In this document: positions 4,288 through 59,964 of the stretch, piece by piece
Numbering within the stretch: position 1 is the first letter of the stretch
Layout: the number at the start of each line of letters is the position of its first letter
Source of the DNA: Serratia inhibens
GTDB lineage: Bacteria; Pseudomonadota; Gammaproteobacteria; Enterobacterales; Enterobacteriaceae
Reading direction: 5' to 3'
NCBI RefSeq assembly: GCF_003591175.1
Contig: NZ_QYYG01000001.1
Location: forward strand, 992,001 to 1,056,000
DNA length: 64,000 nucleotides
Position numbers and translations under genes: made by a program
Notes under the pieces: model-generated
What the model saw: the letters and a program-made list of their open reading frames with translations, nothing else
Told to the model about the DNA's origin: nothing
The model's database searches: none

Positions 4288-4328
4288 GATAATGCCTTAT
4301 ACAATACGGAAAATTTGCCGGGACGATG

Positions 4329-41820: not shown

Positions 41821-44800
41821 ATGAAAAGAATGTTGATTAACGCAACTCAGCAGGAAGAGTTGCGTGTTGCCCTTGTAGATGGACAGCGGCTGTATGATTT
41901 GGACATTGAAAGCCCAGGTCATGAACAGAAAAAAGCGAATATTTACAAAGGCAAAATCACTCGTATTGAACCAAGTCTTGAAGCAGCGTTCGTTGATTAC
42001 GGCGCAGAACGACATGGTTTCCTCCCTCTTAAAGAAATTGCCCGCGAATACTTCCCAAGTAACTACTCTTCCCATGGCCGCCCGAACATCAAAGATGTGC
42101 TGCGCGAAGGCCAGGAAGTTATCGTTCAGATTGATAAAGAAGAACGTGGTAACAAAGGCGCAGCCCTGACCACTTTTATCAGCCTGGCCGGCAGTTATCT
42201 GGTGTTGATGCCGAACAACCCGCGTGCCGGTGGCATTTCCCGCCGCATCGAGGGTGACGACCGCACCGAATTGAAAGAAGCGCTTTCCTCCCTGCAATTG
42301 CCGGACGGTATGGGCCTGATTGTTCGCACCGCTGGCGTTGGCAAATCTGCCGATGCGCTGCAGTGGGACCTGTCTTTCCGTCTGAAGCATTGGGAAGCCA
42401 TCAAGAAAGCCGCCGAAGGCCGCGCTGCTCCGTTCCTGATCCATCAGGAAAGCAACGTGATCGTACGCGCATTCCGCGACTACCTGCGCCCGGATATCGG
42501 TGAAATCCTGATCGACAACCCTAAAGTTCTCGATTTGGCCAAAGAGCACATCGCTGCACTGGGCCGCCCGGATTTCAGCAGCAAAATCAAACTGTACAGC
42601 GGTGAAATCCCTCTGTTCAGCCATTACCAAATCGAATCTCAGATCGAATCCGCCTTCCAGCGTGAAGTGCGCCTGCCTTCCGGTGGCTCGATCGTTATCG
42701 ACACTACCGAAGCCTTGACCGCCATCGACATCAACTCCGCGCGAGCAACCCGCGGCGGCGATATCGAAGAAACCGCGTTCAACACCAACCTGGAAGCGGC
42801 GGACGAAATCGCTCGCCAACTGCGTTTGCGTGACCTTGGCGGCCTGATTGTTATCGACTTCATCGATATGACCCCGGTACGCCACCAACGCGAAGTAGAA
42901 AACCGCCTGCGTGACGCAGTGCGCCAGGACCGTGCGCGTATCCAGATCGGCCGCATTTCCCGCTTTGGCCTGCTTGAGATGTCGCGCCAGCGCCTCAGCC
43001 CGTCACTGGGTGAATCCAGCCATCACGTCTGCCCTCGCTGTAATGGCACCGGCACCATCCGTGATAACGAATCGCTGGCACTTTCCATTCTGCGCCTGAT
43101 CGAAGAAGAAGCACTGAAGGAAAATACCAAAGAAGTTCACGCTATCGTGCCAGTTCAAGTGGCCTCTTACCTACTGAACGAAAAACGTGAGTCGGTGAGC
43201 GCGATCGAAAAACGTCAGGGTGGCGTGAAAGCGATCATCGTGCCGAACGATCAGATGCAAACCCCGCACTACTCTGTGCTGCGTGTGCGCAAAGGCGAAG
43301 AAACAGCAACCCTGAGTTACCTGTTGCCGAAACTGCACGAAGAAGAGATGGCCCAGCCACTGGAAGATGCGCCGATGGAGCGCAAACGTCCGGAACAACC
43401 GGCTCTGGCCTCGTTCTCTTTGGCTGCTGACGCACCACCGCCAGCTGAAGAACCTGTGGCAACCCAAGCTGCAACAGCCGCTGTAGCGACCAAACCAAGC
43501 GCACCAGCCGCTGCCAAACCGGGCCTGTTGGGCCGCCTGTTCGGTGGATTGAAAGCGCTGTTCGCCAGTGAAGAACCACCTGTTGTTGAAGCCAAACCTG
43601 TCGTTGATGCACCTAAGGCCGATGGCAACGGTGAAAACCGCCGCCAGGATCGCCGTGGTCAACGCCGTCAGGGTACAGGCCGTAAAGAACGCGGTGAGCG
43701 TGGGGAGCGAGGTGAGCGTAGCGATCGTCCTGAACGCGGCGAACGTAAAGAGCGCGGCGAAGGCCGTGATAATCGCGAGCGCGATAACCGTGAACCACGT
43801 GAAAATCGTGAGCCGCGTGACAACCGTGGTGAAGGCCGTGAAACGCGTGAAGCGCGCGATGAACAACGCCGTAACAATCGCCGCAATGCGCCGCAGGTTG
43901 CACCGGTTGTCGAGGAGCCACAATCTGAAGAGGCTGCCAAGGCACAGCGTGAAGAGCAGCAACAGCGCCGTGACCAGCGTGCAGAACGCCAACGCCGTCG
44001 TCAGGAAGAAAAACGTCAAGCTCAGCAGGAAGTGGCTGCACTGGAAAGTGTAAACACCAGCACCAACGTTATCAGCGATGAAGATCTGGAAGAACGCCAG
44101 CAGCAGAACATGCAGCGTCGCCAGCGTCGTCCTCTGTCGCAGAAAGTTCGCGTTCTGTCCGCGGAAGAAGAACTGCATCGCGCAGCGGAAGAACTGCTGG
44201 CACCTAAAGCGCCGGTCGTGAAAACCCAAGACGTGAAGCCGGCTCTGGAAGAAGACAGCGTTAAACTGCTGCCAGAAACCCTTGATGCACCAGCTGAAGA
44301 TGATGTTCAGGCCGACAACCGTAACGGCGAAAATGGCATGCCACGCCGTTCACGCCGCTCACCACGTCATCTGCGCGTGAGCGGTCAGCGCCGTCGCCGT
44401 TACCGTGATGAGCGTTACCCTGCCCAGTCACCAATGCCGCTGGCCGGGGCTTTCGCCTCGCCGGAAATGGCGTCTGGCAAGGTCTGGGTCAGTTACCCTG
44501 TAACACAAGCTGCACAAGTGATTGAAGAAGTTGAAGTTCAGACTGAAACTGCCGAAATCGCTGCCGACAACGTGATGGCGCAAGAAACCGTCAGCGTAGC
44601 CACTCCGATAATCGCTGAGGCTGCCGCACAAACCATCGTGCCGGTAGAAACCCCTGAAGTTGCCGTTGCAGAGGAAGCCCAACCGGAAGTTGAAACTGTT
44701 GAGCCGGCCATTGCAGCTCAATCTGTGGAAACGGCTGTGGTACCGCAGACCGAAGCGCCAGTAATTGAAGAAACTACCCTGGTTGAAGAGACTACTGCAG

Positions 44801-45171
44801 TTGAAGCAGCCCCGGTGGTTGAAGCAACCCCTGTTGCGGAAGAGACTGCCGCTGTTGTTGAGCCTGTCGCAGAACCAGCGCCGGTCATCGTTGAGGCCGC
44901 ACCTGTTCAGGAAGCGGCCGCTCCGGTGGTGGTTGCAGAAAAACTGCCGGTTGTTCAGCAGCCAGCGCCGGTACAGGATACGCTCTATAAGCATATCGCC
45001 ACGGCACCGATGACCAAGGCCCCTGCGCCGGCTTACGAGCCGGAAGAACAAAAACGCAGTGATTGGCAACGCCCTTCCTTCAGTTTCGAAGGTAAAGGCT
45101 CTGCGGGTGGCCATGCTGCGGTAAATCAAGCCACAGCGCCGGCAACCAAACCGCAGCCGGTTAACGAATAA
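41821..45171 (+). CDS. rne: Ribonuclease E
   Basis: Essential endoribonuclease for mRNA decay and rRNA/tRNA maturation and scaffold of the degradosome. 1,116 residues (E. coli 1,061). The S1 domain spans about 35-125, DNase I-like catalytic residues are D303 and D346, and C404/C407 (CPRCNGTG) form the zinc link. A membrane-targeting amphipathic segment ([13 protein letters not shown]) follows near 570. Then come an Arg-rich RNA-binding region of RGERGE-like repeats (about 610-780), a second basic region, and the conserved C-terminal tail ([14 protein letters not shown]) that binds polynucleotide phosphorylase. The extra length is an Ala/Val/Glu/Pro-rich linker at about 900-1,060. Confidence 0.97.
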
Positions 45172-45186
45172 TTAATCTGCTCCGAT

Positions 45187-45215
45187 AAAAAAACCCGCCA
45201 AATGGCGGGTTTTTT
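45187..45215 (+). terminator. Rho-independent terminator of rne
   Basis: AAACCCGCCA/TGGCGGGTTT stem followed by TTTTC. It also lies about 18 bases past the stop of the convergent monooxygenase gene, so it can serve both. Confidence 0.85.
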
Positions 45216-45232
45216 CTTGCCGAAAAATCGGT

Positions 45233-45520
45233 TCAGGCAATTTTTTTCAATTGCTTGATATCCAGCAAATCCAGCTTGCCGTCGATCTGGCTGACAAACC
45301 GCTTAAAATGCTCGGTAGCGTTGTGTTTCTCCAACGCTTCCGCACTTGCCCAACGCTCGAAAAACACGAAGGTGCCGGGCTGTTCCAGATCGCGGTGCAG
45401 ATCATACTGCAGGTTGCCCAGTTCCTGGCGGCTTGGCTCTATAATCTCATGCAGCGCATCGTTTACGGCGGACACAAATTCAGGTTTCGCCTGCAGGGTT
45501 GCAATAACACGTACTTCCAT
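45233..45520 (-). CDS. Antibiotic-biosynthesis-monooxygenase (ABM) domain protein
   Basis: 95-residue protein with a ferredoxin-like ABM fold, similar in size to quinol monooxygenase YgiN. Typical stretches are VRVIATLQAKPEFVSAVNDALHEI, EPSRQELGNLQYDLHRDLE and FVFFERWASAEALEKHNATEHFKRF. The ATG at 45520 has GGGAG six bases upstream. Substrate and role are unknown; it stands alone between rne and pyrC. Such proteins act on quinols or degrade small aromatics, which is family knowledge and not shown here. Confidence 0.85.
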   Translation of the reverse strand: MEVRVIATLQAKPEFVSAVNDALHEIIEPSRQELGNLQYDLHRDLEQPGTFVFFERWASAEALEKHNATEHFKRFVSQIDGKLDLLDIKQLKKIA

Positions 45521-45744
45521 TTCGTTCTCCCATTCCACTTGATAAACCTTGATTACCCGGCAGTTAGAAGGCGGGAATCATTAAAATCCCTGTCACTATG
45601 CGCCCGATAGCCAATTGATTTCAACTTGCAGTGAACAAACAGATGCATCGGCGACGCTTTCCGCTTATCCTTACACCCCGGCGTGAATAACCCCCATTAT
45701 TCGCTTTTATATAGACGTGTTTCTGACCGCCGGAGCCTTGCAAC

Positions 45745-46791
45745 ATGACCGCACAACCTCAAGCCCTGAAAATCCGCCGCCCTGACGACTGGCACATCCA
45801 TCTGCGTGATGACGACATGCTGAAAACGGTTCTGCCCTATACCAGTCAGGTATTTGGCCGGGCGATTGTGATGCCTAATCTGGCTCCGCCAATCACTACC
45901 GTAGACGCTGCCCGAGCTTATCGTGACCGCATTCTGGCCGCTGTTCCTCAGGATCATGACTTCACCCCGCTGATGACCTGCTACCTGACCAACTCATTGG
46001 CCGCCGCTGAACTGGTCAACGGCTTCGAGCAAGGCGTATTCACCGCAGCCAAGCTGTACCCTGCCAACGCGACCACCAACTCCAGCCACGGCGTCAGCGA
46101 CGTGAAAGGCATTTACCCGCTGTTCGAACAGATGCAGAAAATTGGCATGCCGCTGCTGATCCACGGCGAAGTGACTGACGCCGCCGTCGATATTTTCGAT
46201 CGCGAGGCACGCTTTATTGAGCAGGTTATGGAGCCAATCCGCCAGCAGTTCCCGGAACTGAAAATCGTCTTCGAGCACATTACGACCAAAGAAGCGGCTC
46301 AATATGTGCAGGAAGGCAATCGTTTTCTTGGCGCCACTATCACGCCACAGCACCTGATGTTTAACCGCAACCATATGCTGGTTGGCGGCATCCGCCCACA
46401 TCTGTTCTGTCTGCCGATACTGAAACGCAATATTCACCAGGATGCGCTGCGCAAAGCGGTCGCCAGCGGTTCGGAGCGCTTCTTCCTCGGCACCGACTCA
46501 GCGCCGCATGCCAAGCATCGCAAAGAATCAAGCTGCGGGTGCGCCGGCGTATTTAACGCTCCCAACGCAATTCCGGCTTACGCCAGCGTATTTGAACAAT
46601 TGGGCGCACTGGAGCATCTGGAAGCCTTCTGCTCACTGAACGGCCCGCGTTTTTATGGCCTGCCGGTCAATGCCGATTTTATCGAACTACAGCGCGTCCC
46701 GACGACGCAACCGGAAGAGATCGCCATGGGTCAGGAAACGGTTGTGCCATTCCTGGCCGGAGAGAGCCTGAGCTGGTCAGTGAAAGCGTAA
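45745..46791 (+). CDS. pyrC: Dihydroorotase
   Basis: Third enzyme of pyrimidine synthesis, converting carbamoyl-aspartate to dihydroorotate. 348 residues as in E. coli. Zinc ligands H17 and H19 (DWHIHL), the carboxylated K103 (AKLYPA) and the catalytic Asp in LGTDSAPH are present. The short leader ACCGCCGGAGCC before the ATG contains the ribosome site; in E. coli the pyrC leader switches start site with pyrimidine supply, and I cannot tell whether that holds here. Confidence 0.96.
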
Positions 46792-46833
46792 AATCTTTTT
46801 TTAACGCAACCCCTTGCCCCTACATAAAGTTAA

Positions 46834-46849
46834 CTGTATAAATAACCAG
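46834..46849. promoter_or_regulatory. LexA (SOS) box of dinI
   Basis: CTGTATAAATAACCAG fits the LexA operator (CTG-N10-CAG) and is identical in its core to the E. coli dinI operator. It is 22 bases upstream of the dinI ATG. Confidence 0.85.
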
Positions 46850-46870
46850 TAAATCGCTTCGGGGGCAATA

Positions 46871-47110
46871 ATGCGTGTTGAAGTCACTATAGATAAAACC
46901 AGACCGCTACCGTCAGGGGCCATCGAAGCCCTGACCGGCGAGCTGGGCAAACGGGTCAAACGCCAATTTCCAGACGCCGTGGTTCAGGTCCGTTATGCCG
47001 GTTCCAACGGGCTTTCTGTGCTTGGCGGCCTAAAAACGGATAAAGATCTTATCGCTGAAATCCTCCAGGAAACCTGGGAAAGCGCAGACGAGTGGTTCAG
47101 CGCAGAATAA
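46871..47110 (+). CDS. dinI: DNA-damage-inducible protein I
   Basis: 79-residue SOS protein that stabilises RecA filaments and limits LexA/UmuD self-cleavage. The sequence MRVEVTIDK, the LTGELGKRVKRQFPDAVVQVRY helix and strand, and the acidic end (ETWESADEWF) are characteristic. Preceded by a LexA box and followed by a strong terminator. As in E. coli it follows pyrC. Confidence 0.95.
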   Translation: MRVEVTIDKTRPLPSGAIEALTGELGKRVKRQFPDAVVQVRYAGSNGLSVLGGLKTDKDLIAEILQETWESADEWFSAE

Positions 47111-47128
47111 CACTGCAATGCTGTTTTT

Positions 47129-47155
47129 GCCGGGGGTCGCTCCCCGGCTTTTTTG
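47129..47155 (+). terminator. Rho-independent terminator of dinI
   Basis: GCCGGGG/CCCCGGC stem followed by TTTTTTG, about 20 bases past the dinI stop. Confidence 0.9.
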
Positions 47156-47247
47156 TCTTTGAAACCTCACTTCACCTCCTCGCAATTTTATTCTGGAAGA
47201 AAAGCCTTATCTGGTCTGTACTGAATGTTTTAACAGGAGGTGTTGAA

Positions 47248-47526
47248 ATGGCCCCGGACAAGATAAAGTCTGAAGAAACGATGACCTTTGGCGAGTTGCT
47301 GGCGCTGATTGGCGATCAAAAAAGGCGCTTGAGCGTACTGGAAGTCGCCTTCTCCTATCTGGCTTTTGGTCTGGATGACAAAGCCAATCAGTTACTGATC
47401 CACAGCCTGAAACTGGAAGCGCAAAATCAGAATCGCGATGCTGAAACGCAGCAGCATTTCGCACACCTGGCCGCCGAGCTGGAGAAACGGTTACACAGCG
47501 CCCCGCCGCCGCTTGATGCGGAATGA
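47248..47526 (+). CDS. Small helical protein of unknown function
   Basis: 92-residue protein that I do not recognise. It is read from an ATG at 47248 with a perfect AGGAGG eight bases upstream, so translation is very likely. Predicted mostly helical: MTFGELLALIGDQKRRLSVLEVAFSYLAFGLDDKANQLLI, then a charged Q/E/H-rich helix and a proline-rich end (SAPPPLD). No signal peptide or membrane segment. It lies between dinI and bssS, where E. coli has no such gene. Cytoplasmic; function unknown. Confidence 0.75.
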   Translation: MAPDKIKSEETMTFGELLALIGDQKRRLSVLEVAFSYLAFGLDDKANQLLIHSLKLEAQNQNRDAETQQHFAHLAAELEKRLHSAPPPLDAE

Positions 47527-47725
47527 GTGCCACATGCCGCCGCGCTGGTGTTCTCAAGTCGGCCAGTAGAATAATGCTCAAATAAATATTTATTTTGCAA
47601 AAAAAAAGGATGGAAAATCCCCACCATAGAAAGCATATGCGTATACTGTAATTGCTCACATGATGATGAGCCGCATTGATCCTCGTTAGTCACTCACGTT
47701 AGTTACTACTCAATAAGGGGTCTTT

Positions 47726-47980
47726 ATGGACAGAAATGATGAAGTAATTCAGACACACCCGCTTGTTGGTTGGGATATCAGTACTGTCGACGTTTATGAC
47801 GCCATGATGATACGCCTTCATTACCTGTCTTCACTAGACCAGACGCCAGAAGAAGCCCAAGTAGACAGAACGCTTTGGTTAACTACAGATGTCGCACGCC
47901 AATTAATCAATATCTTAGAAGCCGGCATTGCCAAGATTGAAGCAACGGATTACCTGGACCTTGATCGTAAAAAACACTAA
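47726..47980 (+). CDS. bssS: Biofilm regulator BssS
   Basis: 84-residue protein, same length as E. coli BssS, which affects biofilm formation and indole/AI-2 responses. Sequence MDRNDEVIQTHPLVGWDIS through LWLTTDVARQLINILEAGI is near-identical to the family. Preceded by AAGGGG and followed by a terminator. Order dinI-bssS-solA is as in E. coli. Confidence 0.93.
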   Translation: MDRNDEVIQTHPLVGWDISTVDVYDAMMIRLHYLSSLDQTPEEAQVDRTLWLTTDVARQLINILEAGIAKIEATDYLDLDRKKH

Positions 47981-48002
47981 TTTACTGCTCCAAAAAGCCT
48001 AA

Positions 48003-48034
48003 GGCGCCAGCGATTATCTCTGGCGCCTTTTTCT
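48003..48034 (+). terminator. Rho-independent terminator of bssS
   Basis: GGCGCCAG/CTGGCGCC stem with a nine-base loop followed by a T-rich run. Confidence 0.85.
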
Positions 48035-48122
48035 TTGCCGGCACAGCAGCGCAACGGGTGCATTGCTGCACCCAACCTTTTATCATAGCCTGATAAGAAA
48101 CTTATCAGAGGGGTTACGGCAC

Positions 48123-49238
48123 GTGGAATATGACTTGATTGTTGTGGGCAGCGGTTCGGTAGGGGCAGCGGCAGGTTACTATGCAACGCGATCCGGCTTG
48201 AAAGTATTAATGATCGACAGCGCGATGCCCCCACACCGTAACGGTAGCCACCACGGCGATACACGAATCATCCGCCATGCCTATGGTGAAGGCGAAAAAT
48301 ATGTGCCATTGATTTTGCGCGCCCAGGCACTGTGGAATGCGCTGATTCAACAAACCGGTGAAGAGCTGTTTCAGGCCTGCGGAGTACTGAACCTGGGGCC
48401 ACGGCATTCTGAATTTATCAGCAATGCCCAACTCAGTGCGCAAAAATTCCGCCTTAACACGCAGAACCTCAGTGCAGAACAGATTAACCAGCGTTGGCCC
48501 GAATTCAACGCACCTGAAGGCTACATTGGCGTGTTTGAACCCGATGCCGGGTTCCTGCGCTCAGAACAGGCCGTCACCAGTCTGATCAAACTGGCTAAAG
48601 AGGCCGGTTGCAGCCAGCTGTTCAATTGCCCGGTCAGTGCAGTGGAGCCTGTCGATGGCGGTGTGGAAGTCGTCACCTCTGAAGGCCGTTTCCAGGGCCG
48701 AAAAGCGGTAGTCACCGCTGGCACCTGGGTAAAGGCCCTGCTACCGCAGTTACCGATCGCACCACTGCGGAAGGTGTTTTCGTGGCATCAGGCGGATGGC
48801 CGATACAGCGTCAACAACCGCTTCCCGGCGTTTACCGTTGAGGCTCAAGACGGCAACCATTATTACGGTTTTCCCGCCGATAACGACGGGCTGAAAGTGG
48901 GTAAGCATGACGGCGGCCAGGAGATGGATGCGCCAGAGCAACGCAAACCTTTCGGCAGTTTCGCCAGTGATGGCACTGAGGTCTTCCAATTCCTGCGCCA
49001 ATTTTTACCCGGTGTAGGGGTATGTTTACACGGGGAAGCCTGTAGTTACGATATGAGTCCGGATGAAGATTTTATTATCGATACCGTCCCCGGATGCGAT
49101 CGACTCATGGTCATCAGTGGTTTGAGCGGCCATGGCTTCAAGTTTGCCAGCGTGTTAGGCGAGATCGCCGCCCTGTTTGCCGAAGATAAAACCCCGCCGG
49201 TGGATGTCTCACCCTTTACGCTAAAGCGTTTTAACTAA
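48123..49238 (+). CDS. solA: N-methyl-L-tryptophan oxidase
   Basis: FAD-dependent demethylase of the monomeric sarcosine oxidase family, 371 residues (E. coli 372). The Rossmann motif is [13 protein letters not shown] near the N-terminus; C307 in [14 protein letters not shown] corresponds to the cysteine that binds FAD covalently. [18 protein letters not shown] is the C-terminal FAD region. The start is a GTG at 48123 with GAGGGG eight bases upstream, matching the E. coli N-terminus. Confidence 0.93.
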
Positions 49239-49254
49239 CCTTTTCCCATTCAGT

Positions 49255-49288
49255 AACCGCACCCGCTAACCCACGCGGGCTGCGGTTT
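49255..49288 (+). terminator. Hairpin after solA, probable terminator
   Basis: AACCGCA...TGCGGTT with an inner CCCGC/GCGGG stem lies 16 bases past the solA stop. The T tract is short, so efficiency is uncertain. Confidence 0.55.
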
Positions 49289-49460
49289 ATCCCCAGTTAC
49301 AATTACACACCTGCATAACCCGTTAAAATTTAATATAAAAAACCTGGCAACGGAAATTTCTGACGCAAGTATCCGGATTTCCGAATTGATCACCTATGGT
49401 GTAAGTTCTATTTTACAGCTGATATGCCCAAGTAATTTTTCGATCAACAAGGACGTGACC

Positions 49461-50090
49461 ATGAAACTGCTTGTCGTGGACGAATGCTGCTTTACCCGGG
49501 TCGGAATTGACAGCTATTTTACTGACTATGTTTTTGCTCAAATCACGTGTTGTCACAGCATTGAACAGGCTATACCGCTGCTGAGCAGTTACCAGCCGAG
49601 CCACATCTTGATCAACCTGACCAAACATTGCCGCTATAACGAAGATGATGCTCAACTGCAGGCTTTTATTGAAGCCAGCCCCGCGGCACTGCTGTTTATT
49701 TATCTGGACACACCTTATCCCTACAGCGAAATGCCGATGCGCATCGCTGATAACGCCTTCCTGTTCAACAAAAGCATTTTGCCCGTCACCTTGCGCATGC
49801 TGAGGGAAAAGCCGGTCACACTGATGGATAGCGGCGTAGAACACTCTCTGTTCAGCCCGCAAGAGCTGATGGTGATGAAACACTGGATGGCGGAAATGCC
49901 GAATTACCGCATCGCCAAAAAGCTGCAAATCAGCTCGCATACGGTTTATGTTCACAAGCGCCACATCACGGAAAAAATCAACGCTCGCAACCGGCTGGAG
50001 TTTTATTCTCTCTATAACGTACTGCGTTATTTCTATCCGCCGAGCACACCGCCGGTTACCCCGATGCCGCTGTCTCTGCTGGCCGTATAA
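49461..50090 (+). CDS. LuxR-type transcription factor with a degenerate receiver domain
   Basis: 209-residue regulator with the RcsA/RcsB-like layout: an N-terminal receiver-like domain (about 1-120) and a C-terminal LuxR helix-turn-helix (about 130-190, FSPQELMVMKHWMAEMPNYRIAKKLQISSHTVYVHKRHITEKI). At the phospho-acceptor site the sequence reads ILINLTK, with N52 in place of Asp, so phosphorylation is not expected, although the acidic D7-E8 and K104 remain. Such factors usually act constitutively or as heterodimers. ATG at 49461 with AAGGA upstream; a longer frame begins at 49386. It is convergent with the large surface-protein gene and is likely to be part of the same acquired islet. Confidence 0.78.
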   Translation: MKLLVVDECCFTRVGIDSYFTDYVFAQITCCHSIEQAIPLLSSYQPSHILINLTKHCRYNEDDAQLQAFIEASPAALLFIYLDTPYPYSEMPMRIADNAFLFNKSILPVTLRMLREKPVTLMDSGVEHSLFSPQELMVMKHWMAEMPNYRIAKKLQISSHTVYVHKRHITEKINARNRLEFYSLYNVLRYFYPPSTPPVTPMPLSLLAV

Positions 50091-50193
50091 TAAAATTAAG
50101 TACAAAAAAATCTTTTATCTGATATAGCTTATCGGTTACAACTACACCGTAAAGCTATTATCGGAATATTCACGCTATAACTAACTCAGGATC

Positions 50194-50286
50194 TTGATCC
50201 CTTCCCAATATCGGTGCCAGGCTAGATCAGAGATCCGGGCCTGTTTGATCCCTTCCCAATATCAGTGCCAGGCTAAATCAGAGATC
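50194..50286. repeat. 51-bp tandem repeat, about 1.8 copies
   Basis: TTGATCCCTTCCCAATATC begins each copy, at 50194 and 50245. The first 42 bases of the two copies match with only two differences. Each contains GCCAGGCTA and ends in GATCAGAGATC or AATCAGAGATC. The repeat lies between two convergent genes. Function unknown. Confidence 0.85.
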
Positions 50287-50293
50287 AGTTCAA

Positions 50294-50320
50294 TCACCAC
50301 CTCCCCAGGAGGTGGTTTAA
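50294..50320 (-). terminator. Hairpin downstream of the large surface-protein gene
   Basis: ACCACCTCC/GGAGGTGGT form a strong nine-base-pair stem with a very short loop, 17 bases past the stop of the minus-strand gene. The T tract is weak on both strands, so termination is probable but not certain. Confidence 0.5.
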
Positions 50321-50336
50321 GGCTGACAATAAAAAC

Positions 50337-53300
50337 TCAGGAAAATAAAAAACCAGTTCCTTCCTGTGCTTTCACCACTCCATTAGTAACCAATAAAGTG
50401 TTATAACTCATACCATTGGCTACATCATGGCTATTTACATCGTAGGCAATAATTAATGTATCATTAACATCAAAAATATGGTCATCATTATTATCGATAA
50501 CAATAGCACTCATTTTAACACTCTGGTTATTTGCATTTGAATAACCAAAAACCCCTACTTTATCAGAAAGTCCGACACCGATTCTAACATTAAAATTATG
50601 CGGTTCCGTCTGAGAAGATAAAATGGTTCCATAATCTTTAATTTCATGTCCATTCAATCCAGATAAAATAACAATATCAGACTGTTGATCGATGAGAGAA
50701 AATTTTTCTGTCGAGAATTTATTTATGACGACTTCAGAGCCGTAAACACTTCGTTCAATATCGATAATGGTGTTACTCGGCACTATACCTTCAGCATAAT
50801 TTAAATAAACTTCGCCACTCACGTTACTGAATTTACTCCCCCCAGATGAACTCACTTCATTTACTATCAGCATGCCTTGAAGCGAGCCTGGCGCACTTGA
50901 ACCACCCTCGATAGATTTAGTAATAACATCAAGGTTTGTACTCGTTGCCACGTCTGATACACTAGGCTTTAGTCCTCCTTTAAAATCGATATCAACGCCT
51001 CGGCTTACGTTTATAACTATTTTACTTATATAATCAGAATAGCTATTAATATTCAAATCCAAATGTCGCATGCCGTTGATAGAAAGAGAGTTAACTTGAG
51101 CATCGATACGCAAATCAAGATGATTACTATATTGATCATTACCATAACTATAAATATCAAAGTTATCAAATACTGCTCCCAACTGTTCAGAGATATAATT
51201 TATGCTACCTGCATAAGTATCTTTTCCTGGCGTATGATAAAGGCCCAAGGATTGGGTTGGATAGAGTGCATTGCCTGTCAGATGGAAAGTTAACTTGTTC
51301 TCGCTAGTAACATCCCCTGTTAGCTGAAGATCATAATTATCAACTCTATTCCAATAGTTCAATACATGTACATCATCCGCTTTTTTACTCAGAGTGAATG
51401 ACATGATGGCCTGGTTGCCATTTGACACTCGCACTTCGGGTATATTATTTTTCCATACGCTGGCAATCAATCCTTCATGCCCTGGTGAATTTATCAATCC
51501 CGCATCAAAAGTATGATTTTGAGTGGCAATGGTTTCATGTGAAACACTGCCATCTGGTTTTTGAATAATACGGTATGCTTCCGTTTTCCCAACATACCCG
51601 CCGAGATCTAGCCATCCTAAACTCAACGTATCATAAGTAAATACACTGGCAAAGTTGGCAATATTACTACTTATCGTATTGGTCACAACACCGTTAATTT
51701 CAGTACTAGTAATTTGCTTGGTGATAAGGTTTGCACTAATAGTCCCATAGCCTTTATAGATAAAATCGTTACTCACATGATTGGCACCACCATCTACACT
51801 GTTGCCATTCCAAAATACGTTGATCTTATTATTAAACCCAAAATTAATTTTTGCCAAAGAAAGATCTACTTCTGGTGAGATATGATAATTACCATTCATA
51901 GAAGATGTGATATTTGCTCCATGCAAGTTTATCTTATTTACAAACTGAGTAGTACTTGCAACATGACTGATAAACTCTGTGAGTTTATCACCATATACAT
52001 TCAACTCCATTAAGTTTTTAGCTGTAGTCAGATCAATTTTAATATTATTAATTGCATATAAATTAATAGATTTCAAAATTGCCAATTCAGCGAATGTGAG
52101 AGAATGCTCTTTGCCAGTATTAACAGTTCCAATAACACTATAATCCTTACTTCCTGAACTCAATGTCGCAGTAGTTTTATAGCCGAGTATATTTCCTATT
52201 TTTTCTTCAAAATTTGCCGATTGAGCATAGTAATTAGAAGAAAACTTAAGCACCCCAACAATCAGTTCTGAACTATAATCACTTTTGTACCTAAATTCAT
52301 TTAGCAATATCTCAACAATCTCTGATTTACTCTTACTTTCCAAACTCTCCCAGAGCTTCTCGTAGTTGACAGCGTTTTCATTAGGGTATAGAGCACTAAA
52401 TACATGTTTCAGGTAATCAATTCCATTAAGATTTGCACCTTTATTTTGAAACTCTTTTGTCCCGATCAAAAAATCGATCAAATCATGGTATGACTTGCCT
52501 TTTTCCAAGATTCTTCCATAATAAACCAACGCTTTATTATCAATATCACGATGCGGAAGAGCAAGGTAAATTGCAACCATCTGTTCTTGATAGTTTACTC
52601 CAGGTAACTCTCCTGGAATGTAACCGGTAACAGCATGTATATAAGCATCATGATTTTTACCGTTCACTGGTTCAGTACTATTTTTTAAGTCATCTAGCAT
52701 ATCTGAAATTATCGAATTTCGTGATACCCCCTCGGCCAGTTGCGTAAGATACGCTTCTTTTTCAGTTACACTTGGTGCTCGGTCAATCGCGTTATCAAAT
52801 AATTTACTTATAAAAAACTCATCGGTACCATTATTCATCTCCGGGCTTAGAATCAAGAAATGCGCAATACCTTCACTCAAGGTAACCTCATGATTATCTA
52901 TTTTATTTCCCCATGCGGCCATTTCTTCATTATCCGGACTGGCGCCCAATAAATAATTGACACCACGCATTTCAATAATACCGCTTCCGTTAACAGGTTG
53001 GCCATCCCATGTAACCATTATTTTATTAATTTTACTGTCAAATACACTTTGTGCATCAACCACACCGTGGTCTGTACCAGAGTAACTCAACAGCCCGATT
53101 ATTATTTCAGATGTATTTTCTGCAATTGTTTTACCATTAGATAAGTAGGCATCAATAACCTGCTGCTCTGCCGGCACTGCATATACTCTTGAGTATATTA
53201 TATTTAGTATTTCTTCATCACTCCGTCCACTATAAAGGGCAGTGCCTTCTTCAGAATTAAATAACGCGGTTGTGTACGCCACAACCGCACTTTCGCCCCC

Positions 53301-53408
53301 TCGTTCTATTAACCTTCCAACGTATTCATAAGTTTCGCTCGTTGTATTCCTTTCCAAAATAGACCAAATCAATGCCACCGAAGTTTTTTGACTGATTAAA
53401 GATGCCAT
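50337..53408 (-). CDS. Large secreted DUF4214-like, S-layer-type protein (putative type I secretion substrate)
   Basis: About 1,023 residues, AT-rich (many AAT, ATA and TTA codons), unlike its neighbours. No signal peptide and no membrane segment. The N-terminal 410 residues hold several helical DUF4214-like units (for example FFISKLFDNAIDRAPSV, ALVYYGRILEKGKSYHDLI, YLKHVFSALYPNENAV). The rest is beta-rich, with Asn/Ser-rich stretches and a repeated NKI-V-W-G element (NKIMVTWDGQPVNG and NKINVFWNGNSVDG). Near the end comes an EF-hand-like DNNDDHIFDVND (972-983), and the protein ends GTGFLFS. This is the layout of Caulobacter RsaA and of other type I-secreted surface proteins; I infer export by an ABC exporter encoded elsewhere. 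The ATG at 53408 has GAGGG upstream; another ATG lies at 53429. Binding partner and function unknown. Confidence 0.7.
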   Translation of the reverse strand: MASLISQKTSVALIWSILERNTTSETYEYVGRLIERGGESAVVAYTTALFNSEEGTALYSGRSDEEILNIIYSRVYAVPAEQQVIDAYLSNGKTIAENTSEIIIGLLSYSGTDHGVVDAQSVFDSKINKIMVTWDGQPVNGSGIIEMRGVNYLLGASPDNEEMAAWGNKIDNHEVTLSEGIAHFLILSPEMNNGTDEFFISKLFDNAIDRAPSVTEKEAYLTQLAEGVSRNSIISDMLDDLKNSTEPVNGKNHDAYIHAVTGYIPGELPGVNYQEQMVAIYLALPHRDIDNKALVYYGRILEKGKSYHDLIDFLIGTKEFQNKGANLNGIDYLKHVFSALYPNENAVNYEKLWESLESKSKSEIVEILLNEFRYKSDYSSELIVGVLKFSSNYYAQSANFEEKIGNILGYKTTATLSSGSKDYSVIGTVNTGKEHSLTFAELAILKSINLYAINNIKIDLTTAKNLMELNVYGDKLTEFISHVASTTQFVNKINLHGANITSSMNGNYHISPEVDLSLAKINFGFNNKINVFWNGNSVDGGANHVSNDFIYKGYGTISANLITKQITSTEINGVVTNTISSNIANFASVFTYDTLSLGWLDLGGYVGKTEAYRIIQKPDGSVSHETIATQNHTFDAGLINSPGHEGLIASVWKNNIPEVRVSNGNQAIMSFTLSKKADDVHVLNYWNRVDNYDLQLTGDVTSENKLTFHLTGNALYPTQSLGLYHTPGKDTYAGSINYISEQLGAVFDNFDIYSYGNDQYSNHLDLRIDAQVNSLSINGMRHLDLNINSYSDYISKIVINVSRGVDIDFKGGLKPSVSDVATSTNLDVITKSIEGGSSAPGSLQGMLIVNEVSSSGGSKFSNVSGEVYLNYAEGIVPSNTIIDIERSVYGSEVVINKFSTEKFSLIDQQSDIVILSGLNGHEIKDYGTILSSQTEPHNFNVRIGVGLSDKVGVFGYSNANNQSVKMSAIVIDNNDDHIFDVNDTLIIAYDVNSHDVANGMSYNTLLVTNGVVKAQEGTGFLFS

Positions 53409-53652
53409 ATAACCCTCATTATTTTCCATTAAAATTCAGATAACCTCATGCAAAATATAGACTATACAATGTATTTAGTCCACCTAATAAAAACCATGAA
53501 ATTTTAAACTATTATTAAATTTTAATTAAAGAATAATATAAAAAGATAAACAATATGAAAGTACACTCGCGATTTTACTGACTCATAATATAATTATTTC
53601 AGTAAGGATAAAAATACTATAATCAGCGGTCCTTACCTTTTGGTTGCTTAGA
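53409..53652. other. AT-rich upstream region of the surface-protein gene
   Basis: About 240 bases of strongly AT-rich DNA between the large gene and yceO. It must contain the promoter of the former; several TATAAT-like stretches exist and none can be singled out. Confidence 0.4.
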
Positions 53653-53769
53653 ATGCTAAACAAAATACTGTCGGCGATCGTCAACAATGTACGCGAACAT
53701 CTGGTGCTGTATCTCTGTCTGTGGCTGCTGATACTGGTGCTGGATGTCTATTTCTTCTTTATGACCTGA
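53653..53769 (+). CDS. yceO: Small membrane protein YceO-like
   Basis: 38-residue protein with one membrane helix (VLYLCLWLLILVLDVYFFF). It is clearly related to the C-terminal part of E. coli YceO (46 residues): both have INN/VNN-(I/V)REHL-LYL-LW followed by a hydrophobic helix. In E. coli yceO lies between solA and yceJ, as here apart from the insertion. The ribosome site is weak. Function unknown. Confidence 0.72.
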   Translation: MLNKILSAIVNNVREHLVLYLCLWLLILVLDVYFFFMT

Positions 53770-53794
53770 CTCAGGCCGCTAACCTTCCCCCCGT

Positions 53795-54010
53795 TTGTGT
53801 TTTCGCCATTTCGGTTACCCGGAACAGGGGTCCGGCCTTGAACAATCCGCCATCTCCCCTCCACCATCCGACCGGCTGTTGCCGCAAATGCGCTATGTGC
53901 CGATCAACCCGTCTGCTTTGATCCCGCTGCAAGGCCAGTTGCGCATCGCCTTACCCCAGGTTCCGGGTTATGAATACGTCGGCGAAGTTATCGCCCCTGT
54001 AATCCATAGG
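53795..54010 (+). pseudogene. Remnant of an MDR-family zinc-type alcohol dehydrogenase (N-terminal part)
   Basis: The reading frame gives a recognisable N-terminal quarter of the medium-chain dehydrogenase family: FGYPEQ near the start, RYVPINPSALIPLQGQ and LPQVPGYEYVGEVI. After about 68 residues similarity stops and the frame ends within 30 codons. The catalytic and nucleotide-binding parts are gone. It is therefore a truncated remnant, probably cut during rearrangement of this region. A further unrelated frame with GLVYAGGDASEKQ follows at about 54018-54119 and is not recognised. Confidence 0.6.
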
Positions 54011-54119
54011 CTAACGGGCTGGTGTACGCTGGCGGTGATGCATCAGAAAAGCAAACCATCAACCTGGTTAAAACCAAACTGGAAATAATCGACATTCTTT
54101 GCTACCGGTTTATTTGTTA

Positions 54120-54374
54120 AAAAAAGACCACATTTACGCAAAATGACAAAAGCTGACAGAAATAAATAAAACACTTTTGATTTCAAAGCATAATGTAAAA
54201 TCACGCTCAAATGACGATATTCACTACGACGATTTCACTGATTAACTTTCGCTATCTTCCGCAAATTCACTGATTAATATTCTAAAGAAGTAACATAGTT
54301 AAATTTATTATTGATTTTATGTTTCTTAAAGTTTAATTATTGCATCCAGAAAATGAAGAACGTAAGGAAACAAG
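54120..54374. other. AT-rich gap before yceJ
   Basis: No gene recognised. CACTGATTAA-like segments occur twice (54234-54245 and 54267-54277: TTTCACTGATTAACTTT and ATTCACTGATTAATATT), a short imperfect repeat. The region must contain the yceJ promoter. Confidence 0.4.
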
Positions 54375-54929
54375 ATGCTTTGGAAAAATACCGCCAGCCG
54401 TTTTGGCCATATTTCAGTGTTAATCCATTGGCTGGTTGCCCTGACGGTTTACGGCATGTTTGCCCTGGGCCTGTGGATGGTCACGCTGGGCTATTACGAT
54501 GTCTGGTATCACCAGGCACCGGAAATTCATAAAAGCATCGGTACGCTGTTGTTCATCGTCATGGTGGTTCGGGTGATTTGGCGTTTCGTTTCACCTCCGC
54601 CAAAACCGCTGGCCAGCTACAGTCGCTTTACTCGCGTCAGTGCAATACTGGCTCATATCGCGCTGTATGTCGTGTTGTTCAGCATCCTGATCAGCGGCTA
54701 TCTGATTTCTACCGCCGACGGCCAGGCGATCAGTGTTTTCGGCTGGTTCGACATCCCCGCCACCGTCACCGGCATGGCTGAACAGGCCGATACCGCCGGC
54801 ACTATCCACCTTTATCTGGCCTGGACCGTCGTCGTGCTCTCGCTACTGCACGGCCTGGCTGCGCTTAAACATCACTTTATCGATCGTGATGTGACTTTGA
54901 AACGGATGCTGGGTAGCAGCGCCGATTAA
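54375..54929 (+). CDS. yceJ: Cytochrome b561 homologue YceJ
   Basis: Four-helix inner-membrane dihaem cytochrome of 184 residues. Candidate axial ligands are H18, H52, H145 and H159, in the positions of the family. The sequence follows E. coli YceJ closely ([36 protein letters not shown]). It precedes yceI by 23 bases as in E. coli, so the two are co-transcribed. It probably passes electrons between quinol and a periplasmic partner, by family knowledge. Confidence 0.92.
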
Positions 54930-54952
54930 CCTTTGGATTTATGGAGATTGCT

Positions 54953-55531
54953 ATGTTGAAGAAAACCGTACTGGGCCTGACCGCAGGCGCACTGTTGCTG
55001 AGCGCAGGTTCCGCGCTGGCTGCCGACTACAAAATTGACAAACAGGGGCAACACGCCTTTATCGAATTCCGCATCCAGCACCTGGGTTACAGCTGGTTGT
55101 ACGGTACCTTCAAAGACTTTGACGGCGGCTTTACCTTCGACGAAAAAGATCCGTCCAAGGACAAGGTTAACGTCACTATCAATACTGCCAGCGTCGACAC
55201 CAATCACGCCGAGCGTGACAAACATCTGCGCAGTGCAGAGTTTTTGAACGTGGAAAAGAACAAACAGGCCAAGTTTGAATCCACCGAAGTGAAAAAGAAC
55301 GGTGACGGCTATGCAGTGGTCGGTAATCTGACGCTGAACGGCGTTACCAAACCGGTCACGCTGGACGCCAAACTGATCGGCCAGGGTAATGACCCATGGG
55401 GTGGCTACCGCGCCGGCTTTGAAGCCAACGGTAAAATCAAGCTGAAAGACTTCGGCATCACTACCGATCTCGGCCCGGCATCGCAGGATGTTGAGCTGAT
55501 TATTTCTGTCGAAGGCGTACGCGCGAAGTAA
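54953..55531 (+). CDS. yceI: Periplasmic lipocalin-like protein YceI
   Basis: 192-residue protein with a Sec signal ([23 protein letters not shown], cleavage near 23) and a YceI beta-barrel that in related proteins binds polyprenyl or quinone-like lipids. Motifs [20 protein letters not shown] and [22 protein letters not shown] are typical. ATG at 54953 with GGAG upstream, matching the E. coli length of 191. In E. coli it is induced at high pH and osmolarity. Confidence 0.93.
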
Positions 55532-55535
55532 TGCT

Positions 55536-55561
55536 AAAGCGCGGCAAATCTGCCGCGCTTA
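55536..55561. terminator. Terminator between convergent yceI and trhO
   Basis: AAGCGCGGCA/TGCCGCGCTT stem with a four-base loop, placed five bases past the yceI stop and nine before the trhO stop. Confidence 0.6.
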
Positions 55562-55569
55562 TCATTGGC

Positions 55570-56637
55570 TCAGCTTGCTGGGCCGTCATCTTCAGGTGCA
55601 GGAATGTGCATCGTGGTCTGCAACAACCCTTTCGACTTATTGAAAATCTTGATGCCATTTTCACGGCCGGCTCGGCGGGCACGCTGTTCTTCACGCGGCA
55701 ACTTCAGCTCTTCGCGGCAGATCTCGCTGCAGCAACCTTCAAATTTGGCGGCGCAGGTCGGGCACTGAATAAACAATAAATGGCAACCGTCATTCTTGCA
55801 GTTGGTGTGAGTATCGCAGGCGGCGCCGCACTGGTGGCAATTGGCGATCACATCGTCAGAAATCCGCTCGCCCATGCGCTCGTCGAACACAAAGTTCTTG
55901 CCGACAAACTTCAGCGGCAGCCCCTGCTCTTTCGCCTTGCGCGCATACTCGATAATTCCGCCTTCCACGTGGTACACGTTTTTGAAGCCGTTATGCAGCA
56001 TGTAGGCGCTGGCTTTTTCACAGCGAATACCGCCGGTGCAGTACATAACAATATTTTTGTCTTTATTGTCCTGCAGCATCTCGACCGCCATCGGCAGTTG
56101 GTCGCGGAAAGTGTCTGAAGGCACCTCGATGGCGTTTTCAAAGTGACCGACTTCATATTCGTAATGGTTACGCATATCCACAAACAGCGTATCCGGATCG
56201 TCAATCATCTGGTTGACGCGATCGGCCTGCAAATACTCTCCCACATTCGCCGGGTTGAAGCTCTCATCGTCAATCCCATCGGCGACGATGCGATCGCGCA
56301 CCTTAAGGCGCAGCACCCAGAAGGATTTACCGTCATCTTCCAAGGCGATATTCAGGCGCACCTGATCCAGCGCCGGGTGTGAGGCAAACAGCGCGGTTTT
56401 AAACGCCTCGAACTTGTTCTGCGGCACGCTGATCTGCGCGTTGATGCCCTCTTTGGCCACATAAATGCGGCCAAACACCTTCAGCTTGTCAAACTGAACG
56501 TACAGGCTGTCGCGAAACGCTTTGGGATCGCCGATGGTGAAGTATTTATAAAAAGAAACTGTGGTGCGTGGCTCTGTTTCCGCCAGCATGCGCGCCTTCA
56601 GTTCCTCATTAGAAATTCGGTTATGTAACACTGGCAT
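55570..56637 (-). CDS. trhO: tRNA uridine-34 hydroxylase TrhO (rhodanese family)
   Basis: Oxygen-dependent enzyme that makes 5-hydroxyuridine at the wobble position of some tRNAs. 355 residues. The rhodanese domain has the catalytic-loop C200 in [13 protein letters not shown]. An N-terminal ferredoxin-like domain (about 1-110) and a Cys-rich C-terminal zinc region ([19 protein letters not shown] and [16 protein letters not shown]) complete it. Gene yceA in E. coli, in the same neighbourhood. Confidence 0.93.
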
Positions 56638-56844
56638 GGTGTACTTTCCTGTCTTTCGGGAGGTGGCTTATTTTGAACGCGCAGGCCGCAGGCCCACGCG
56701 CGGCGCACATAATACCCGAAAATGTCGCTCAAAACAGCATTAGCCCGGCGGCAAAGTTTAACGCTGGAAACTTGACGCCGGTCACAAACCCCGATAAGCC
56801 TAAGGGTAGTTTGCTTTCTCTTTACCACGGATCCGGAGGACGTC

Positions 56845-57942
56845 ATGAGTCAGTTATTTACCCCGATTTCACTGGGTGAGCTGGATTTACCCAACCGTAT
56901 TATTATCGCCCCTATGTGCCAATATTCTGCCTACGAGGGCAAAGCCACCGAATGGCATACCATGCATCTCGGCCAGTTGTCATTGTCCGGCGCAGGGTTA
57001 CTGATCGTCGAGGCCACTTCAGTGGCGCCAGAAGGGCGCATCACGCCTCGCGATCTCGGCCTGTGGGACGAGGCGACCGAACAGGCGCTGGCGCAGGTGG
57101 TGCAAGCAGTGAGAAAACACGCCTCCATGCCATTAGGCATTCAACTCTCCCACGCCGGGCGCAAGGCCTCCTGCGGTATTCCCTGGGAGGGCGGTGGGCA
57201 ACTCAGCGCCGCACGCGGGGGCTGGCAAACCTGCTCAGCCTCCACCGTGCCCTTCGCATCGCAAGATGCCCTCCCCGCGGCCATGAGTCTGGCCGAGATC
57301 GAGCGGTTGAAAGCGCAGTTTGTTGCGGCGGCAAAACGTGCCGACCACCTGGGCTTTGAGTTGATTGAGCTGCATGGCGCACACGGCTATCTGCTGCATC
57401 AGTTCCTTTCCCCCCTGGCTAACCAACGTAACGATCAATACGGCGGTTCCTTGCAAAATCGCATGCGCCTGTTGCTGGAAATTTTCAGTGACGTGCGCGC
57501 AGTGTTCCCGGCGAACAAAGCGCTCGGCGTGCGGATTTCAGCAAGTGACTGGGTGGAAGGCGGGTGGGATGAACAGCAATCGGTGGCGCTGGCGAAAGCG
57601 CTGAAAGAGTTGGGTTGCGATTATATCCACGTTTCCAGCGGCGGCCTTTCACCTCAGCAGAAGATCCCTGTCGGCCCGAATTATCAGGTGCCATTCGCTG
57701 AAGTCATCAAGCGGGAAAGCGGCCTGCCGACCATCGCCGTGGGACTAATCACCGAGCCGGAACAGGCTGAGGCGATTGTCGCCACCGGCCAGGCGGACAT
57801 GGTGGCACTGGCTCGCGGTATTTTGTACAACCCGCGCTGGCCATGGCACGCGGCCGCCAGGTTGGGTGAGAAAGTCAGTGCACCGCCACAATACTGGCGT
57901 TGCGAACCTCACGTATTGAAAGGGCTGTTTAAAAACGACTGA
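56845..57942 (+). CDS. NADPH dehydrogenase, YqjM-like old yellow enzyme
   Basis: FMN-dependent ene-reductase of 365 residues in the thermophilic-like OYE class. C25 and Y27 in PMCQYSA and H177 and H180 in HGAHGYLLHQF are at the positions of the YqjM active site; the FMN motif QLSHAGRKA and the arginine stretch VALARGILYNP are present. ATG at 56845 with CGGAGGA upstream. Reduces activated alkenes such as enones and maleimides; the physiological substrate is unknown. No E. coli counterpart at this position. Confidence 0.88.
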   Translation: MSQLFTPISLGELDLPNRIIIAPMCQYSAYEGKATEWHTMHLGQLSLSGAGLLIVEATSVAPEGRITPRDLGLWDEATEQALAQVVQAVRKHASMPLGIQLSHAGRKASCGIPWEGGGQLSAARGGWQTCSASTVPFASQDALPAAMSLAEIERLKAQFVAAAKRADHLGFELIELHGAHGYLLHQFLSPLANQRNDQYGGSLQNRMRLLLEIFSDVRAVFPANKALGVRISASDWVEGGWDEQQSVALAKALKELGCDYIHVSSGGLSPQQKIPVGPNYQVPFAEVIKRESGLPTIAVGLITEPEQAEAIVATGQADMVALARGILYNPRWPWHAAARLGEKVSAPPQYWRCEPHVLKGLFKND

Positions 57943-57960
57943 CGGACTTGGCTTGGGTGC

Positions 57961-58122
57961 TCAGCGCCCAAGCCGACATTCGGTCAAACCGGAAATCACC
58001 ATTCCCGCCAACAGCGCGATACCCGCAACCGCCAGCAGAGGGTTAAACTGCAGGTGTGCGCCCAGGCTACCCAATAATGCCCCAAGGATCAGCAACCCGG
58101 AACTTAACCATGATACCCACAT
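57961..58122 (-). CDS. Small two-helix membrane protein
   Basis: 53-residue protein beginning MWVSWLSSGLLILGALLG and ending ISGLTECRLGR. It has two hydrophobic segments at about 5-20 and 28-46 separated by GAHLQFN. A strong ribosome site (GAGGGAAGG) precedes the ATG at 58122, so translation is likely. No known family recognised. It stands alone between the oxidoreductase and lpxL genes. Confidence 0.65.
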   Translation of the reverse strand: MWVSWLSSGLLILGALLGSLGAHLQFNPLLAVAGIALLAGMVISGLTECRLGR

Positions 58123-58399
58123 AACCTTCCCTCAGAATAATTGCGCGCTCATAATACGCATCTCTTGTGCGCAGCCTTATCTTTTAGAGCGATTCAGCTG
58201 AATTAATAATCATATTATTCCCAATTATCACTTAAAATTATGTATTAATGCGGTGCCTTTTCACGTTGCGCGAGAAAAATGTCACAATAGTGGTTATAAA
58301 CGGCAGAAAAACCAGGGTGAATAAAATGTCCGTCTGAAGGATAAACCCTGCTATTACTCTGTTATTATTGTTAAATGACTGCTTCTAAGCTGAGAACAC

Positions 58400-59320
58400 A
58401 TGACTCAAGTTCCTTCTTTTAATCGCACTTTATTGCACCCGCGTTACTGGCTTACCTGGTTCGGTATTGGCCTGCTTTATCTGCTGGTATTACTGCCTTA
58501 CCCGATTATCTATCGCCTCGGGACCTCGTTGGGCCGTTTTTCCATGCGTTTTCTCAAGCATCGCGTGGCGATTGCCCGGCGTAACCTGACGCTGTGTTTC
58601 CCGGACATGCCGCAGGCCGAACGCGAAGCGCTGCTGGTGCAAAATTTTGAGTCCGTAGGCATGGGACTGTTTGAAACCGGTATGGCCTGGTTTTGGCCAA
58701 ACTGGCGTATCGAGCGCTGGTTCCACGTCAGCGGGCTGGAACACATTCAAAAGGCACGCGACAACCATCAGGGCGTTTTGCTGATCGGCTTGCATTTCCT
58801 TACGCTGGAACTGGGCGCACGTATCTTTGGCATTCATAACCCAGGTATCGGCGTTTACCGCCCGCACGACAACAAGCTGATGGACTGGCTGCAAACCTGG
58901 GGCCGCATGCGTTCCAACAAGTCCATGCTGGATCGTAAAGACGTGAAGGGTATGATCCGCGCGCTGAAACAGGGTGACATCATTTGGTATGCGCCGGATC
59001 ACGACTACGGCCCGCGCAGCAGCGTATTCGCCCCGCTGTTTGCCGTGGAGAAGGCCGCTACCACCACCGGCAGCTACATACTGGTGCGGATGGGCAAACC
59101 GGCGATCATCCCCTTTACCCCGCGTCGCCTGCCGGATGGCAAAGGTTATGAGTTGATTATGCAGCCGGCGGTGGAAAACTTCCCGCTGGACAATGAGTTC
59201 GAGGCCGCCGCGTTTATGAATAAAGTAGTGGAAAAAGAGATCCTGATGGCCCCGGATCAGTACATGTGGTTACACCGCCGCTTCAAGACCCGGCCCGAAG
59301 GCGAGCCCTCGTTATATTGA
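58400..59320 (+). CDS. lpxL: Lipid A lauroyl acyltransferase
   Basis: Adds the secondary lauroyl chain to Kdo2-lipid IVA at the inner membrane. 306 residues as in E. coli LpxL (HtrB). An N-terminal membrane helix (about 16-36) precedes the acyltransferase domain with H132 and E137 in LHFLTLE. The neighbour order mdtG-lpxL-yceA is the E. coli one. The paralogue LpxP has a similar sequence but a different position. Confidence 0.92.
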
Positions 59321-59432
59321 CCACAATCCGCCTTATGGCGGGTCATTTTGTGCTCTGGGTATTGAGAACCGGAGATAATGGTGAGAGGGTAATCATCCTG
59401 ATCGTCCTCACTATTTTCACCCTGGAGCCATT

Positions 59433-59717
59433 ATGTATATCGTTAGCCTGACTTACCATCGCCCGATAGAAGAAGTTGATAGTCATCTCGAGGGACATGT
59501 CGCCTGGCTGAAAAAATATTTCCAGGACGGTACCTTCATCGCCTCCGGTCGTAAAAATCCGCGTACCGGCGGTGTGATCCTGGTGAAAGGCATTGACCGT
59601 GCTCAGTTGGATACCATAGTGGCACAAGATCCGTTCAACGCCGTAGCCAACTACGACATTACCGACTTCACCCCCTCCACCACCGGCAACGGTTTTGACC
59701 TGCTCGCCGGGCTGTAA
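59433..59717 (+). CDS. YciI-family protein
   Basis: 94-residue ferredoxin-fold protein of the YciI family (MYIVSLTYHRPIEEVD, HVAWLKKYFQDGTFIASGRKNPRTGGV, DPFNAVANYDITDFTP). The His of HVAWL and the Asp of DPF correspond to the conserved pair thought to be the active site. Function unknown; some members form part of fused or associated dehalogenase-like and oxygenase systems. Lies alone between lpxL and mdtG. Confidence 0.85.
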   Translation: MYIVSLTYHRPIEEVDSHLEGHVAWLKKYFQDGTFIASGRKNPRTGGVILVKGIDRAQLDTIVAQDPFNAVANYDITDFTPSTTGNGFDLLAGL

Positions 59718-59964
59718 ATACCGCTAAACTTCCAGTTGCCGCAAACAACGACGCAGCCAGAAACGATGGGCATATTCCGCGCAGCCAGCGCGGAATACCG
59801 ACAATACGTTATTTTTAAAACTTTATTTCATTCTTCAGGCAAGTCCTCCTACATCAATTGATGCCGTCTATAATTAGGCACATACTTACCAGGCTAACTT
59901 TCTTGCTTTGCCCTCCTTGTTTTCGCCTGCAAGCAAAGCGCGCTACCTTCTGCAATGGTAATTT

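Follow-up and report, generated by a model that had tools for sequence, protein, structure and literature searches.

What is a giant, AT-rich gene doing inside a conserved core block of the Serratia inhibens genome, and does its product belong on the cell surface? A sequence-only reading of the stretch of DNA analysed here (64,000 nucleotides; hereafter the window) had proposed an acquired surface-layer-type protein, plausibly a substrate of the exporter that serves the S-layer protein SlaA. Our analysis supports that interpretation, which proves largely right. With a probability of roughly 0.68, we take the protein, here called SLP, to be an acquired, highly divergent SlaA paralogue exported in trans by the SlaA (Lip) exporter to serve as a coat protein in place of SlaA or beside it.

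The gene and its composition

The minus strand holds one open frame, 50337-53429, within which the gene was set at 50337-53408, giving 1,023 codons and a protein that begins MASLISQ. The start at 53408 is preferred over that at 53429 because SlaA proteins and the closest relative of SLP, P0002, begin MASL or MSSL and because GAGG precedes 53408.

50337..53408, minus strand: SlaA-like orphan S-layer-type protein (SLP), 1,023 aa, from frame and homology

The frame of about 1,023 residues is thereby confirmed, and so is its unusual base composition: GC is 0.364 and GC3 0.296 in a window of GC 0.544, compared with GC 0.501-0.546 and GC3 0.587-0.654 for solA, the neighbouring regulator, yceJ and yceI. 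The protein is acidic (pI 4.84) and contains no Cys, which is absent from 35 of 37 family proteins compared. Judged by eye, its N-terminus carries no signal peptide, as the sequence-only reading had claimed. A Pfam scan returned one DUF4214 match (E 4.8e-11) and otherwise only one match below cut-off, an NCBIfam scan found no family match, and neither collection gave an enzyme family. Promoter-like sites number 14, no more than the 15.9 of shuffled sequences. On the minus strand, 53263-53291 contains a 12-pair hairpin with ATTTAATTCT behind it, some 117 nt into the frame; it may be a chance occurrence, since terminator-like sites number 4 against 2.4 expected.

Insertion between two conserved genes

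The features around the gene are as follows.

49464..50090, plus strand: RcsA-like LuxR-type regulator, conserved, left neighbour of the insert (Pfam/NCBIfam and relatives)
50091..53609, no strand: inserted segment, replacing about 71 bp of the closest relative at this site, L111 (locus comparison)
50194..50286, plus strand: 42-bp intergenic repeat, two copies, spacing 51 (genome comparison)
53653..53769, plus strand: yceO (DUF2770), right neighbour of the insert (locus comparison)
53792..53998, plus strand: remnant of a zinc-binding dehydrogenase gene (relatives' loci)

The gene had been placed between solA and yceO-yceJ-yceI. On the right this is correct, as yceO adjoins the insert, but on the left the regulator at 49464-50090 (63.8 bits against an RcsA cut-off of 162) separates it from solA. 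Near-full-length solA matches of at least 87% occur in 26 of 30 genomes of the genus and regulator matches of at least 71% in 27 of 30, the own genome included in both counts. We inspected 20 of the 25 other loci having near-full-length solA: solA, the regulator, yceJ and yceI stand in the same order at all 20, and an SLP match was found at none, so the gene does interrupt a conserved core block and is not universal in the genus. At L111 (genome G009, solA 97%), similarity ends at the stop codon of the regulator and resumes at 53610 of the window, which in L111 lies about 71 bp on, leaving an insert of about 3.5 kb between the regulator and yceO. The empty sites show that the SLP gene arrived in one piece between two conserved neighbours.

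The interval from the regulator to yceJ (50091-54374 in the window) is itself variable in the genus. Between yceO and yceJ, a dehydrogenase-like frame of at least 325 residues is present at 15 of the 20 loci and an AI-2E-transporter-like frame of at least 349 residues at 16, with the two families assigned by tests on L115; the window retains only the dehydrogenase remnant here and has no AI-2E-type transporter match. At L111 and L128 (G028) neither of the two forms an open frame, and at L125 (G018) and L127 (G006) the regulator-yceJ interval is longer by about 1.4-1.5 kb.

Search for a donor and for traces of mobile elements

The two ends of the insert (50061-50200 and 53521-53680) share no word of 8 or more bases, and neither a target duplication nor a transposase was found. 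No tRNA was found at 44000-60000 and no Rfam match at 49000-55000. The 42-bp repeat was considered as the end of a mobile element, which the repeat searches did not show; allowing up to 3 mismatches, 3 of the 29 other genomes of the genus contain its 40-bp core, in one or two copies. Positions 50288-50335 have an 81% copy elsewhere in the genome, and no transposase was recognised by eye in the open frames around that copy.

Searching by tblastn at E 1e-5 gave no match in 50,697 phage or 72,556 plasmid records. Viral contigs searched with two peptide patterns, and named genomes first scanned with SLP's own peptides, yielded neither donor nor match among the places carrying the chosen peptides. 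No donor outside the genus that would account for the low GC came out of these searches.

Homology to SlaA and distribution in Serratia

The own genome (5.38 Mb, 29 contigs) contains two members of the family, the SLP gene and the gene at C1:1372560-1375541. SLP is 31% identical to the protein of the latter over residues 8-1018 (E 4.7e-80), and it matches SlaA and other Serratia members over its full length, with best E-values of 4.7e-80 to 3.0e-85. As judged from these alignments, SLP is a full-length, collinear homologue of SlaA at about 30% identity and with the same domain order, which bears out the proposed kinship with S-layer proteins.

With SLP as query, 26 of 60 genomes gave matches. 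These 26 belong to the 30 genomes of the genus, the own one among them, and the 30 genomes of other genera gave none; up to six match rows were obtained per genome, some being pieces of one gene. Matches came from two of 394 genomes of the order (own and one of the same genus), and a profile search of 369 genomes of the class matched the own genome only. The genome's own SlaA matched 443 proteins, and among the 120 listed the named ones are from Serratia save one compost metagenome record; an alignment-based scan of named genomes gave 13 loci, all titled Serratia. The SlaA-like family is seen here only in Serratia.

The only close relative of SLP found in a search of 5.8 billion proteins is P0002, which is 68% identical and keeps the full length; such searches score about 8,000 candidates sharing exact words and do not list SlaA itself, so they inform on close relatives only. 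Repeating the protein search with three AT-rich relatives added brought nothing further. From residue 1001 onward the identity of SLP to P0002 is 0.39, and the C-terminal end is poorly conserved, with a terminal FLFS unlike the ends of SlaA. SLP and P0002 make up a long branch (1.78) of their own in a quick maximum-likelihood tree (56 rows). The large SlaA group, an AT-rich trio, a group of four and a clade of 18 all stand separate from it. Since the program warned that the pair and the trio, both on long branches, may be falsely joined, we use only the isolation of the pair.

AT-richness is not unique to the SLP gene among Serratia SlaA-like genes. GC is below 0.40 in 6 of 54 other family genes (G002 0.351; G019 0.371 and 0.394; G009 0.379; G003 0.395; G018 0.396), and the GC3 of the SLP gene is the lowest of the 55 measured, the next being 0.303. 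That extreme value, the lack of an excess of promoter-like sites, the decay of the DNA beside the gene and its occurrence in one genome plus one relative (P0002) would all suit a silent or decaying acquisition that is rarely or never translated. Yet the frame has stayed open over 1,023 codons at a GC of 36%, and the 68%-identical P0002 retains the full length and the invariant family positions, as expected under selection. We therefore consider a silent gene improbable.

Predicted fold and loss of RTX-type motifs

The following parts of SLP were distinguished.

52188..53408, minus strand: all-helical N-terminal part, residues 1-407 (predicted model)
52695..52850, minus strand: DUF4214 (PF13946), residues 187-238 (domain search)
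50904..52172, minus strand: beta-rich body, residues 413-835 (model; residues 439-835 match RsaA 571-873)
51732..51839, minus strand: RTX-less stretch, residues 524-559, the place of two RTX-type motifs in SlaA (alignment and pattern)
50460..50495, minus strand: EF-hand-like loop DNNDDHIFDVND, residues 972-983 (alignment)
50340..50459, minus strand: C-terminal tail, residues 984-1023, expected place of the type I secretion signal (position only; low model confidence)

A layout like that of Caulobacter RsaA had been read from the sequence, with DUF4214-like helical repeats, a beta-rich body and an EF-hand-like loop near the C-terminus, and each part can be recovered. The predicted model is helical to residue 407 and beta-rich from residue 413, the single DUF4214 match lies within the helical part, and DUF4214 is present there in all 20 SlaA-like family members of an alignment, SLP included. 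Within the C-terminal loop (DxNx...DxxD), D972, N974, D980 and D983 are invariant in a 70-row alignment; 68 of these rows, all but SLP and P0002, are SlaA-side proteins, which may bias the model towards SlaA.

Structure comparison by VIA-align placed three RsaA chains at the top by Z (13.8, 12.7 and 12.2), and the genome's own SlaA, used as a control, likewise gave RsaA chains at the top (15.9, 15.3 and 15.2). The N-terminus of SLP matches the LPS-bound domain of RsaA less well than the beta body matches its part. The likeness is weak by Foldseek, where RsaA came fifth (E 0.11), after phycobilisome linkers and a protease, and in PDB sequence searches with SLP no RsaA chain reached E 1 or lower (four chance-level matches in one search, none in the other). 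Because phycobilisome linker proteins have the lowest Foldseek E-values (best 9.6e-4), one might ask whether SLP is a cytoplasmic enzyme or unrelated protein that is surface-like in composition only. VIA-align sets these linkers on helical residues 137-254. The full-length homology to SlaA and the Serratia members, together with the missing enzyme family in Pfam and NCBIfam, argues strongly against such a protein and makes it highly improbable.

The RTX-type pattern is found neither in SLP nor in P0002. They are the two exceptions among the SlaA-side rows of the tree, where the other 36 of 38 have at least one motif. At the two RTX places the own SlaA reads LGAGNDTLKW and GGAGTDVISA, and SLP has no Gly-Asp pattern there (residues 524-559). 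This loss is not unique to SLP and P0002, since 16 of 18 rows of the other clade also lack the motifs, and three of the six AT-rich SlaA-like genes retain them. By its sequence, SLP lacks a defining feature of RTX S-layer proteins though it retains homology to SlaA. Its gene represents a new, isolated and RTX-less branch within a known family of S-layer proteins and does not amount to a new kind of system.

The exporter and the ordinary slaA locus

If SLP is secreted, which exporter could it use? The gene at C1:1372560-1375541 is followed on the same strand by genes for a 588-residue ABC protein (lipB homologue, C1:1370365-1371984), a 443-residue HlyD-type protein and a 402-residue TolC-type protein, which exceed the NCBIfam cut-offs of TIGR01842 (PrtD), TIGR01843 and TIGR01844. 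Polysaccharide synthesis-like genes, recognised by eye, lie upstream. This is the slaA-lipBCD arrangement; SlaA and Lip are reportedly the subject of work by Kawai et al. in 1998. Because this ordinary slaA adjoins a lipBCD-type exporter and the SLP gene does not, the latter stands as an orphan second paralogue, some 327 kb from the slaA locus. PMC9000132 places four genes for SlaA production and transport between O-antigen and capsule loci. PMC3034196 describes SlaA as a 1002-residue protein that appears to be exported by Lip and whose N-terminal region varies between strains, and Lip as exporting LipA (its gene unlinked to lipBCD) and PrtA besides SlaA.

The PrtD cut-off was passed at one place only, beside the own slaA, in a genome search that scored 96 of 161 candidates. 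In agreement with the claim that no exporter is encoded nearby, this search and a second one (77 of 164 candidates scored) gave no ABC exporter inside the window. In the second, three ABC proteins with frames of 708-734 residues had HlyB-like scores of 386-398 bits, short of the 726 set as cut-off.

We compared 42 fetched stretches, some of them the same locus from two collections, with the own exporter: 19 have all three exporter genes and a SlaA-type gene, 2 have part of an ABC gene at the edge and 21 have no exporter match, an absence that is weak in 15 of the 21, which extend about 0-3 kb on each side, the other six spanning 16-20 kb. In G028 (L042, L047), two separate SlaA-type genes are each followed by all three exporter genes, and further family members are present. 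Two genomes (L043 7720-17281 and L050 7311-16486) have three tandem SlaA-like genes, with no exporter match found in the 19.5-kb stretch, and in L155 (G022) a SlaA-type gene at 1632-4587, itself split into two frames, adjoins an ABC exporter gene. The literature searched, with partial coverage, yielded no treatment of several SlaA-like genes in Serratia; PMC12165300 mentions a DUF4214 protein cluster that correlates with type VI secretion in Serratia.

These data also bear on whether SLP is instead a secreted SlaA-family adhesin, surface-bound or released, that forms no lattice and possibly leaves through another exporter. Such an adhesin would fit the loss of RTX-type motifs, the orphan position of the gene, the three HlyB-like ABC proteins below cut-off and the relatives elsewhere, some in tandem, whose fetched stretches hold no exporter. 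However, the body of SLP still matches the lattice part of RsaA by VIA-align, its domain order is that of SlaA, and the only place passing the PrtD-type cut-off is beside slaA; an adhesin is therefore unlikely.

Proposed mechanism

We favour a coat protein exported in trans, which would arise in four steps. First, as the empty sites show, the SLP gene came in as a single segment between its two conserved neighbours. Second, it may be transcribed on its own and perhaps silenced, a conditional expression suggested by the AT-richness of its DNA. Third, since it appears to have no exporter of its own, the unprocessed protein would leave through the SlaA (Lip) ABC exporter in trans, with an uncleaved C-terminal signal. 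Fourth, SLP would fold outside and sit on the cell as an alternative, additional or minor coat component, possibly attached to surface polysaccharide by its helical N-terminus. Counting against this reading are the poorly conserved C-terminal end, the missing RTX-type motifs, the low Foldseek rank of RsaA, the possible bias of the model, the other ABC proteins with HlyB-like scores below cut-off and the lack of an excess of promoter-like sites.

More tentatively, Serratia species could keep a pool of orphan SlaA-like genes, confined to the genus and in many cases AT-rich, of which the RTX-less SLP gene would be a new branch. Such scattered cassettes could constitute an S-layer switching system, mostly silenced, whose products are exported in trans, replace or mix with SlaA and depend less on calcium. 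We regard this as doubtful but conceivable.

Comparison with known systems

SLP shares with SlaA of Serratia its length, MASL/MSSL start, domain order, absence of Cys, acidity and C-terminal acidic loop. It differs in its sequence (about 30% identity), its position away from an exporter, its GC of 36%, its lack of RTX-type motifs, its C-terminal end and its K+R content (6.8%, versus 2.3-4.5% in the SlaA-side rows compared). Other Serratia SlaA-like genes away from slaA-lipBCD belong to the same family, and six were measured at GC below 0.40, but they lie on other branches of the tree. If the SlaA exporter does export SLP, the S-layers of Serratia would vary with the gene in use as well as by drift of the slaA sequence, and one exporter would serve scattered substrates.

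RsaA of Caulobacter, an LPS-bound S-layer protein, is the best structural match of the predicted beta body of SLP, whereas the middle part of SLP resembles DUF4214 and phycobilisome linkers. RsaA has RTX repeats, according to PMC3034196, and SLP has none. As a full-length relative without RTX-type motifs, SLP offers a natural test of how far coats of the RsaA/SlaA type need RTX calcium sites.
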